38,633 bases of DNA from Elusimicrobiota bacterium (GTDB lineage: Bacteria > Elusimicrobiota > Elusimicrobia > UBA1565 > UBA9628): contig JACPFR010000062.1 in assembly GCA_016182905.1 (NCBI GenBank), positions 1 to 38,633 of the forward strand. Direction: 5' to 3'. Positions within the stretch are counted from its first letter, which is position 1, and every line of letters begins with the position of its first letter. The notes below the pieces were generated by a model, which did not search any database, was not told the origin of the DNA, and saw only the letters and a program-made list of their open reading frames with translations. Positions 28,888-32,269 of this stretch are shown one piece after another. The position numbers were made by a program, and so were the translations under genes.

Positions 28888-28916
28888 ATGTAACAGGTTT
28901 GATTACATCTTGTCAA
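28888..28916 (-). promoter_or_regulatory. Promoter of the YceI gene
   Basis: On the minus strand TTGACA (28911-28916), a 17-nt spacer and TTACAT (28888-28893) precede an AGGAGG site and the ATG at 28858. It sits in the 54-nt gap after the permease stop. Confidence 0.7.
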
Positions 28917-30184
28917 GCCGGGCGCCGGCGGGAAAGGAGCCGCGCGCCGGCGCGCAGGGCGAAGCCCGCCGCGAGCACGGCCGCCGAGGCCGCGACCTGC
29001 AGCCAGCCGCCCTGGGCGCCGAGCCACGCCGTGGCCCCGATGCCCGCGAGCGGCACGAGGGCGCCCGCGGCGAGGCCCAGCCGGCCCCGCGCGCGGCGGG
29101 AGCGGCGCGCGAGGACGACGGCGCAGGTGGACAGGAACTGCGCCCCGATGACGACGTTCGAGAAATCCACGAGGCCTTCGAAGTCGAGCAGCAACGCGGC
29201 CGCCAGCGCCGTGCCGGTGGACCAGAGGATCGAGGCCGAGGGCGTGCCGAAGCGGGGATGGACCGCGGAGAGGACCTTGGGAAGATGCCCCTCCTCGGAG
29301 AGAGCCACGAGATAGCGCGGGCCGCCCAGCGCCGAGCCGGCGACGTAGCCGGTCATCGAGATCACCGCCCCGGCGGTCACGAGCGCCCCGCCCCACGGGC
29401 CCATCAAGGCGGACGCGGCGTCGGCGAGCGGGCGCTCCGAGGCGGCGAGCCCCGGGACCAAGGCCAGCGCGGCGACCTGGACCAGGATATAGAGGACGGC
29501 GGAGCCGCCGAGGGCCGCCAGCACGGCGAAGGGCACGTCGCGCTTGGGGTCTCGGGCCTCGCCCGCGGGCACGGGCACGGTCTCGAAGCCCTGATAGGCG
29601 AAATACGCGAGGAAGCAGGCGGCCCCGAGAGGCTCCCCCCAGCCCTGCGGCGGCGCCTGCGGACGCCACGCCGGCAGGGCGTGCAGGCCGGCCAGCGCGA
29701 TCAGCGCGATCGGGATGAGCTTGGCGACGGTGAAGAAATCCGTGGTCCACGCCCCGAGGCGCACGCCGCGCCAGTTCAGCGCGCCGAAGCCGCCGATGGC
29801 GAGGCAGGCGACGGTCTTTCCGATATACGGGCGCTCCGCCGCCCACGGCAGGTACGACGCGATGCCGTTGGCCACGGCGGCCCAGCTCACGACCATCGTG
29901 ATCCAGCACAGCCAGCCGATGGCGAAGCCCCAATCCGGGCCGAACTCCGCGTGGGCGTACAGCGCCGGCCCGCCGGCGCGGTCGTGCTCCGCGGAGGCCT
30001 CCGCGAAGCACAGCGCCACGGGCGCCAGGAGCAGGGCGGTCAGCGCGTAGGCGAGCGGGGAGGCCGAGCCGAGGTGGCCGGCCAGGCGCCCGGGGAACAG
30101 GAACACGCTCGAGCCGACCACGGCGTTGATCCCGAGGCACAGCAGGTCGAAACGGGTGAGCAGGCGATGGGGAGGCGGCGTCAC
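28913..30184 (-). CDS. APC-superfamily amino acid permease
   Basis: This 423-residue protein has about 12 membrane helices. LLCLGINAVVGSSVFLFPG is the first helix with the GxG-type substrate motif of APC transporters, and FLAYFAYQGFETVPVPAGEARDPKRDVPFA is the conserved helix-6 to loop region. The substrate is unknown; an amino acid or amine is likely. GTG 30184 overlaps the upstream stop (GTGA), placing it last in the transpeptidase operon. The longer upstream opening is not used. Confidence 0.85.
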   Translation of the reverse strand: MTPPPHRLLTRFDLLCLGINAVVGSSVFLFPGRLAGHLGSASPLAYALTALLLAPVALCFAEASAEHDRAGGPALYAHAEFGPDWGFAIGWLCWITMVVSWAAVANGIASYLPWAAERPYIGKTVACLAIGGFGALNWRGVRLGAWTTDFFTVAKLIPIALIALAGLHALPAWRPQAPPQGWGEPLGAACFLAYFAYQGFETVPVPAGEARDPKRDVPFAVLAALGGSAVLYILVQVAALALVPGLAASERPLADAASALMGPWGGALVTAGAVISMTGYVAGSALGGPRYLVALSEEGHLPKVLSAVHPRFGTPSASILWSTGTALAAALLLDFEGLVDFSNVVIGAQFLSTCAVVLARRSRRARGRLGLAAGALVPLAGIGATAWLGAQGGWLQVAASAAVLAAGFALRAGARLLSRRRPA

Positions 30185-30963
30185 GGCTTCGTCTCGAGGG
30201 TCAGGAGGATCTTCGTGCCGACGAAACTCCGGCTGTAAAGGCGGGCCGCCACGGCCCGCGGCAGGGAGAGGCACAGGTGCGGGAAGGCCTCGTGCTCGGC
30301 CTCCTTCAGCGGCGGGCCGTGCAGCACGAGCCCCTCCTTCGTGAACAGGACGAACTCCCCGAGCGCGCTCGCGCGCAGCGAGGTGCCGACCTGCGGCGGC
30401 TCCCATTGGAGCTGGCCGCCGACCTGGTCGGACTTCGGCCGCTCGGTGCTCGCGAAGCGCTCCTTGCTGACGATCGCCGCGCTCCTCGGCGGCGGGCGCG
30501 TCTCCCCGCCGACGGCCCGCGGGCGCGCGCCGGCGAGCGGGAGGCTCTCGGCGATCTGGTCGCCGAGCATGAGATGGATCCTGTCGGCTCCGTCTTCGAC
30601 GCGGACCCAGAGGCTCATGATCTCGAGCTGCTTCTCGAGCAGGCGCTTCTCCTCGGAGAGCGCGAGCCCTCCCTCGAACAGGGCCTTGCGCGAGCGGGAC
30701 AAGGTCGCCGCGCTCGCCTTGGCGCGCGCGAAATCGCGGGACGCGAGGGCGCTCAGGGCCCGGCGCTCGGCCAGGTCCAGGTCGAGGTCCTCGCGCGCGA
30801 CCGCGAGGGCGGCGCGCTCGTCGGCGGCGCGCGCCGCGCTCTCCGACACCCAGCGCCCCGTCAGCCAGAGGCAGCCGATGATCGCGGCGCCGGCGGCGGA
30901 AAGCCCGAGGGCTCCGACGCGGCGGTCGAGGCTGTCGAGACGGCGCGCCAGCGTCATGCTCAT
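30181..30963 (-). CDS. Divergent L,D-transpeptidase-like membrane protein with altered active site
   Basis: This 260-residue protein has one membrane anchor (about 17-36), a coiled coil (about 42-115) and a C-terminal domain. By eye the C-terminal domain follows its upstream neighbour: SLWVRVEDGADRIHLMLGDQI against ALHLVIDAKANKLYVKKGAQL, and LVLHGPPL...PHLCLSLPRAVAARLYSRSFVGTK against YLIHGTKR...SHGCVRVGAADLEKLYASVPNGTK. His215, His229 and Cys231 are kept, but the Gly and Arg of the SHGCVR motif are Leu230 and Ser233. It may be inactive, a partner of the active enzyme, or changed in reaction. Start overlaps the upstream stop (ATGA). Confidence 0.6.
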   Translation of the reverse strand: MSMTLARRLDSLDRRVGALGLSAAGAAIIGCLWLTGRWVSESAARAADERAALAVAREDLDLDLAERRALSALASRDFARAKASAATLSRSRKALFEGGLALSEEKRLLEKQLEIMSLWVRVEDGADRIHLMLGDQIAESLPLAGARPRAVGGETRPPPRSAAIVSKERFASTERPKSDQVGGQLQWEPPQVGTSLRASALGEFVLFTKEGLVLHGPPLKEAEHEAFPHLCLSLPRAVAARLYSRSFVGTKILLTLETKP

Positions 30964-31736
30964 TCGAAGATCCACACCTTCGTCCCGTTCGGCACGGACG
31001 CGTACAGCTTCTCGAGGTCCGCGGCGCCGACGCGCACGCAGCCGTGCGAGGCCGGGCGCCCGAGCAGCTCCTCGCGCTTGGTGCCGTGGATCAGGTAGCC
31101 GTCGCCGAGGTTCATGACGAAGCCCCCGAGCTCGCCGGACACCATGCGGGACGGGTCCCCGGGAGGAGGCACCGGCTCGCCCGCCTCCACGTAGGCCCAG
31201 TCCGGCTTGCGCCACTGGGGATTGACCGCCTTGCCGATGACGCGGAACTCCCCGCGCGGCGTCACGAACTCCCACTTCCGTCCGCTCTTGGCGTCCTTGA
31301 GGACGCCGCCGCGGCCCACGGAGACGTCGGCCTGCCAAAGGAGCTGAGCTCCTTTCTTGACATAGAGCTTGTTGGCCTTCGCGTCGATGACCAAGTGCAG
31401 GGCGCCCTTCAGGCGCTTGGCGACCTTCGCGCGCAGCAGGCCGACCTCGCCCTCGATGGCCTTCTGGGTCCGCAGGTAGCCCTTGTCCTCGGGGAGTATG
31501 TTCGGGATGTCCTGGAGGAAGCGCGCGTCGCCCGCCCGCTCGCCGGCCTCGCGCGCCAGGGCCCGAAGGCTGCGCGCGCCCTCGTCGAGCGCGCGGGCCT
31601 CGTCCTCGAGGCGGCCCGCCTCGCGGGACAGCGCGGCCCCGTCCCGGGAGATCGCGCAGGCCCGCCAGCCGAACGCCGCGGTCCACAGCGCGAGCGCCAG
31701 GGGATAGACCGTCCGCCCGAACGGGTTCTCGCTCAC
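30960..31736 (-). CDS. L,D-transpeptidase (YkuD domain), membrane-anchored
   Basis: This 258-residue protein has an N-terminal anchor (about 9-28), a coiled coil (about 33-75) and a YkuD domain from about 112. The active-site motif is complete: His217 (IHGTK), Ser230-His231-Gly232-Cys233 and Arg235. The family forms 3-3 crosslinks in peptidoglycan or attaches proteins to it. GTG 31736 overlaps the stop of the upstream lipoprotein (GTGA) and the stop overlaps the next gene (ATGA). Confidence 0.9.
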   Translation of the reverse strand: MSENPFGRTVYPLALALWTAAFGWRACAISRDGAALSREAGRLEDEARALDEGARSLRALAREAGERAGDARFLQDIPNILPEDKGYLRTQKAIEGEVGLLRAKVAKRLKGALHLVIDAKANKLYVKKGAQLLWQADVSVGRGGVLKDAKSGRKWEFVTPRGEFRVIGKAVNPQWRKPDWAYVEAGEPVPPPGDPSRMVSGELGGFVMNLGDGYLIHGTKREELLGRPASHGCVRVGAADLEKLYASVPNGTKVWIFE

Positions 31737-32269
31737 GGGAGCGGGATCTCGTCGACGGGGTCGTCGGGGCGGGCGGCCCTCGCGGGGCGGCGCTCGCTGG
31801 CCAGGGGCGCGAGCGCGCGGGAGGCGGCGTCGGCGATCTCGGCGGCGTCCGCGAACGCCTCGCCGCGCGGATGGGCGACGGCGCGGAGGACCGCGTCCCC
31901 GGTCCGCGCGTCGAGCGCGGAGACCTCGAGCCCGCGCCAGGCCGGGTCCAGGGAGAGGAAGGCGACCGCGTCGGCGCCGGTCGCGCGGCGGATCTCGTCG
32001 AGCAGGCGCGGGTTGCGGGCCGCCTCGAGGCCGATCGCCGAGCCGGCCAGGACGCTGTCGGACTCCTCGAGAGCGGAGGCGGTCAGGCCCAGGGACTCGA
32101 GGCGACGCACGAGGGCCCGGGAGATCTCGACGCCCTTGCCGCGGGCCCCGCGCGTCGCGGCGACGGCCACCGTCCGGGCCCGGAACGAGGGAGCGCGGGA
32201 CAAGGTCTCCTGGCGCTCGGCGCCGCCGCACGCGGCGAGCAGGAGGAGCGCCGGCAGGAGGCGCCGCAC
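31733..32269 (-). CDS. Small lipoprotein, possibly LpoB/CsgG-like fold
   Basis: This 178-residue protein has lipobox LLLLAAC (MRRLLPALLLLAACGG). The body reads TVAVAATRGARGKGVEISRALVRRLESLGL, later LLDEIRRATGADAVAFLSLD, a beta-alpha pattern like TolB_N/LpoB/GNA1162-type lipoproteins with their GAD..v.g segment. The family call is weak. Its place directly before an L,D-transpeptidase suggests an activator or anchor for it. GTG 32269 begins 7 nt after the RRM gene stop. Confidence 0.6.
   Translation of the reverse strand: MRRLLPALLLLAACGGAERQETLSRAPSFRARTVAVAATRGARGKGVEISRALVRRLESLGLTASALEESDSVLAGSAIGLEAARNPRLLDEIRRATGADAVAFLSLDPAWRGLEVSALDARTGDAVLRAVAHPRGEAFADAAEIADAASRALAPLASERRPARAARPDDPVDEIPLP

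Follow-up and report, generated by a model that had tools for sequence, protein, structure and literature searches.

A conserved gene pair in Elusimicrobiota couples a canonical L,D-transpeptidase with a YkuD-fold paralogue carrying an altered active site

The window, that is the complete 38,633-nucleotide stretch analysed here (contig JACPFR010000062.1 of assembly GCA_016182905.1), contains a run of genes on the minus strand, transcribed in the order RRM protein, A, B, C, APC permease and YceI protein. The first gene (32789-32277) encodes an RRM RNA-binding protein with a Gly/Lys-rich tail. It ends 7 nt before the start of A and may share a transcript with it. A (31733..32269, GTG start) encodes a small lipoprotein recognized by its lipobox and its predicted PelC/GNA1162/LpoB-type fold. 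B (30960..31736, GTG start) encodes an inner-membrane-anchored canonical L,D-transpeptidase, assigned through the Pfam YkuD model. C (30181..30963, ATG start) encodes an anchored YkuD-fold paralogue of B, identified by profile comparison and predicted structure. An APC-superfamily amino acid permease (28913..30184) follows, with the YceI protein (28858-28244) downstream of it. Neighbouring genes overlap by 4 nt: A and B by GTGA, B and C by ATGA, and C and the permease again by GTGA. A first-pass annotation of this DNA had described three open reading frames, a lipoprotein preceding two related proteins and joined to them through GTGA or ATGA overlaps, and exactly this arrangement was found.

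B comprises a transmembrane helix (residues about 10-30), a coiled coil and a YkuD domain (114-256). It matched Pfam YkuD (PF03734) with an E-value of 5.9e-22 and 79.3 bits, above the curated cut-off of 23.4, and was the sole YkuD protein that this model found in the whole genome. The complete HG...SHGCVR motif already noticed in the first-pass annotation is present (HGTKREELLGRPASHGCVR), and the active-site segment HGTKREELLGRPASHGC (H217-C233) is encoded at 31038..31088 on the minus strand. With residues numbered from the first catalytic His (position 0), H0, G1, S13, H14, G15 and C16 were invariant in 45/45 relatives; position 9 was Gly in all 45, and Arg18 occurred in 43. When the sequences were tested for coiled-coil heptads, B showed a signal (shuffle fraction 0.0015) and C no clear one (0.096).

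C consists of a transmembrane helix (about 17-37), one long helix reaching to residue 117 and a YkuD-fold domain (118-256). Searches of Pfam (E up to 1) and NCBIfam returned no match, and the YkuD model never picked up C in the 22 genomes searched. BLASTP aligned 66 residues near the C-termini of B and C (E 3e-6), and a profile-profile comparison of the two families spanned 168 columns (E 1.2e-6). We also employed hhalign on C proteins from a divergent lineage of the same phylum (family code f16). They matched the B profile across 209 columns (E 7e-16) and the C profile across 226 (E 9e-17), and these alignments took in the helical stalk. Judged from these alignments, the resemblance between B and C goes beyond chance. 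The structure of C was predicted with a pLDDT of 87.5. When the model was compared with the PDB by Foldseek, the best 50 matches were all L,D-transpeptidases (E from 8.9e-6), and VIA-align superimposed it on B. subtilis YkuD with a Z score of 12.2 over 103 residues at 2.9 Å. By profile comparison and a confidently predicted structure, C is a YkuD-fold paralogue of B. The second protein had been called YkuD-like before, and structure prediction, Foldseek, VIA-align and profile comparison all agree with that assignment. Two checks had been suggested for it: the predicted fold turned out to be YkuD, while the PF03734 profile gave no hit at E 1. Any other known domain was ruled out for C, as Pfam and NCBIfam were empty and a profile search of PDB sequences returned coiled-coil noise only.

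In a tree of 96 domains, built by a quick method and containing long branches, the C proteins formed one clade (SH-aLRT 96) and the B proteins another (75). Since all C proteins fall into one group and all B proteins into one group, a single old duplication is the simplest history. C has a longer stem branch than B and evolved about twice as fast. Against relatives, dN/dS was about 0.27-0.6 for C versus about 0.1-0.4 for B, indicating purifying selection on C that is weaker than on B. These ratios, together with the residue invariance described below, ruled out a chance reading frame or a decaying gene.

The active-site segment of C, HGPPLKEAEHEAFPHLC (30271..30321, minus strand), contains H215, H224, H229 and C231. 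These residues form the pattern H-x8-H-x4-H-x-C, and H0, H9, H14 and C16 were invariant in 46/46 sequences from two divergent Elusimicrobiota lineages. In the window, C keeps His215, Gly216, His229 and Cys231 and carries Leu230 and Ser233 at the Gly and Arg positions of B. The first-pass annotation had read these positions correctly and had overlooked His224 (position 9), which is new in C and stands where B has an invariant Gly. Ser13, Gly15 and Arg18 of B are replaced by varied residues, and the (S/T)HGC signature around the nucleophile is absent from C (PHLC in the window; Gly in 0/46 and Ser/Thr in 2/46 sequences). In LdtMt2 and Csd6, the catalytic set combines the first His with the main-chain carbonyl of the residue after it and with the Cys, and the oxyanion hole is formed by the backbone NH groups of three residues ending in the Cys, among them the NH of the Gly15 equivalent (PMC3605043, PMC4599014). 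Loss of Gly15 and Arg18 may abolish normal acylation in C, and the added His may take part in metal binding or alter the shape of the pocket.

The published minimal motif of the catalytic set, H(S/G/D)X14-19C (PMC4599014), is kept in C, as H215-G216-x14-C231 in the window and in 43/46 sequences overall; in the remaining three, Ala follows the His. Because the motif is retained to this extent, 'pseudoenzyme' is not the natural reading of C. The first-pass annotation had proposed a pseudo-enzyme or variant partner. A catalytically dead C acting as scaffold or allosteric regulator of B would fit the loss of Ser, Gly and Arg from SHGCVR, the missing Pfam match, the constant occurrence of C together with B and the overlap of their genes, and the longer stem branch and faster evolution of C. 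However, a scaffold could do without the nucleophile, and H215, H229 and C231 are invariant in every sequence of both lineages. We therefore consider a dead C unlikely; as far as sequences can tell, its active site is altered, not lost, and C is not a drifting pseudoenzyme.

A different explanation starts from His224, which is as invariant as the catalytic residues (46/46) although catalysis by the standard route would not call for this. C could be a metal-binding YkuD derivative whose three His and one Cys bind zinc or a similar metal, and which senses, structures or activates without forming an acyl-enzyme. The H-x8-H-x4-H-x-C spacing would suit a metal site. On the other hand, three of the four residues are inherited from the catalytic site and are invariant in B too, H224 lies in a predicted short helix (221-226) of the C model, and the available sections of the literature examined describe no metal-binding YkuD protein. 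This explanation appears rather improbable to us.

B orthologues, defined by a score of over 150 bits, were encoded in 37/295 genomes of the phylum. The same 37 genomes encoded C, on the same contig and adjacent to B in every case (37/37). B was located directly upstream of C in 35/35 named loci, including two with a broken B frame (L034 and L036) and one in which C is cut by the contig end (L042), and the two genes usually overlapped by 4 or 1 nt. Conservation of the gene order in relatives, which the first-pass annotation had named as a check, is thereby borne out for the pair. No YkuD genes were found in 8 checked relatives that lack the pair. Beyond the phylum, where the pair may occur as well, the search comprised two short peptide patterns run over the genome collection. 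Transmission through plasmids or phages was ruled out, as tblastn gave no match in either collection. The literature covered, which was partial, contained nothing that joined YkuD with pseudoenzyme or Elusimicrobi- with D-transpeptidase.

These counts bear on whether B and C might be two independent enzymes, each with a substrate of its own, that share only their regulation and form no complex. B and C are separately anchored, each has a conserved lid region of its own, and both keep catalytic residues, as would suit such independence. But 0/37 genomes keep B or C alone, while the other neighbours change freely, and we judge a purely regulatory association to be very unlikely.

Two further loci carry related genes. 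A short C-like fragment (66-aa frame) lies at G296:C29:1681-1806 (L089), in one genome beyond the 37 that lacks a B orthologue; it is possibly a remnant of the pair. A same-genus genome (G007:C96) contains a second, separate YkuD tandem (L073:3256-4914), in which a degenerate YkuD protein with Ser at the Cys position (PGSF) directly precedes a canonical SHGCVR L,D-transpeptidase, so that the order is reversed relative to B and C.

The lipoprotein A has the lipobox LLAAC, with an invariant Cys14. Foldseek matched its predicted fold to PelC (E 3e-7), GNA1162 (3e-3) and LpoB (1.5e-2), and structure alignment gave Z scores of 11.4, 8.8 and 8.5, respectively, within a broad fold class in which the TolB N-terminal domain and FlgT score equally high. 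The Pfam families of PBP activators and CsgG-type proteins gave no hit at E 1. Because of the structural matches, the LpoB/CsgG-type fold suggested earlier for the lipoprotein was right at the superfamily level. A resembles the outer-membrane lipoproteins LpoB, PelC and GNA1162 in its predicted fold. However, LpoB has a long flexible linker of up to 145 Å and targets PBP1B, not L,D-transpeptidases (PMC4632607), whereas the first predicted strand of A begins at residue 20, six residues past the lipid-bearing Cys14, leaving A without a long linker. A also lacks a Pfam hit to LpoB, and it adjoins B only in the genus of the window. Weaker relatives of A sit elsewhere, including in genomes without the B-C pair. 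The idea of a three-gene unit with a lipoprotein activator was not supported: among relatives the order of B and C is kept, while the position of A beside B is confined to one genus. As a core member A was ruled out; it is a genus-level addition outside the B-C core. One might speculate that C reaches with its domain towards the outer membrane, where A would sit, by means of its stalk of about 77 residues, which would measure some 115 Å if straight.

We then looked at the genes surrounding the pair in relatives, whose loci, rather than the window alone, make a link to transporters visible. All 8 genomes of the divergent lineage, the one lineage with the Opp link, share the order oppB, oppC, oppD, B, C, oppF, and 4 of the 8 encode a family-5 solute-binding protein before oppB. 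In about ten loci from several genera of the window's family, the APC permease directly follows C. At some loci, the pair adjoins neither of these transporters. At one locus (L049:823-5184), the pair lies beside a sodium/solute symporter and a gene for a NamZ exo-beta-N-acetylmuramidase on the opposite strand. In one class-level relative, a BacA/UppP gene is located two genes downstream of C (L074:7526-8305). Such neighbourhoods suggest that wall peptides, or the amino acids in them, are turned over and taken up. We know of no described opp operon that contains L,D-transpeptidase genes. In E. coli, murein tripeptide is taken up by the Opp translocator together with MppA (PMC12136057), and the B-C pair of the divergent lineage lies inside an opp-type operon. 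Its position there offers a connection of wall remodelling with peptide uptake that can be tested.

Our best reading of the locus is that it encodes an L,D-transpeptidase system of two membrane-anchored proteins, with a link to the import of peptides or amino acids derived from the wall; C would contribute altered Cys/His chemistry or metal binding. An old tandem duplication would have produced B and C before the sampled Elusimicrobiota lineages separated. Both proteins would sit in the inner membrane through their N-terminal helix, with a helical stalk placing the YkuD-fold domain at the peptidoglycan layer; this layout of anchor, stalk and domain comes from the sequences and, for C, from structure prediction, and a periplasmic location is probable. 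By analogy with its family, B would perform ordinary Cys acyl-enzyme chemistry on stem peptides. C has kept the nucleophilic Cys and the catalytic His on a remodelled oxyanion loop without Ser, Gly and Arg, and with an extra invariant His. It would most likely carry out a second Cys/His-dependent step on wall peptides, for example hydrolysis of the L,D bond or of the products of B, acting as partner subunit of B. The released amino acids or short peptides would be imported by the transporter that is often co-encoded, Opp in the divergent lineage and the APC permease in the family of the window. We rate the chances of this scenario as a whole, with one system of common origin, a second step by C in partnership with B and import of the products, as about even. 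A bolder version holds that B is useless in the cell without C, so that the two would form an obligate two-subunit enzyme in which C, a YkuD derivative, has a new three-His-one-Cys active site; the pair would pass stem peptides or amino acids directly to the co-encoded importer, as a module of wall turnover and uptake. We offer this version tentatively and regard it as doubtful.

To our knowledge, an L,D-transpeptidase is usually described as consisting of a single chain. If throughout a phylum the enzyme is always accompanied by an altered twin with retained catalytic residues, this would represent a new way to build or regulate an L,D-transpeptidase. B and C form a real, conserved two-gene system in which the YkuD active site takes a new variant form; the role of C is putative, and the C proteins would make up a YkuD family that is missed by Pfam and NCBIfam. 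Compared with the YkuD L,D-transpeptidases (PF03734; LdtMt2, B. subtilis YkuD and the E. coli ErfK/YbiS group), B is a member, and C has the same fold, with the catalytic His...Cys residues equally spaced. In contrast to these enzymes, C escapes detection by Pfam, has neither (S/T)HGC nor the Arg, carries an extra invariant His, and in the genomes searched was found only beside B. The available sections of the papers on Csd6, Pgp2 and DpaA describe L,D-carboxypeptidases and an Lpp-releasing amidase, that is YkuD-fold hydrolases, in which the fold is able to hydrolyse rather than cross-link (PMC4599014, PMC10653827). Unlike the paired C, these hydrolases are not described with a transpeptidase twin in those sections. 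In its oxyanion loop Csd6 keeps the Gly before the Cys (Lys-Gly-Cys), whereas C has lost that Gly. Most closely, the catalytic residues of Csd6, as given in the same sections, read H-G-x14-C, with a spacing identical to that of C (PMC4599014, PMC10653827).
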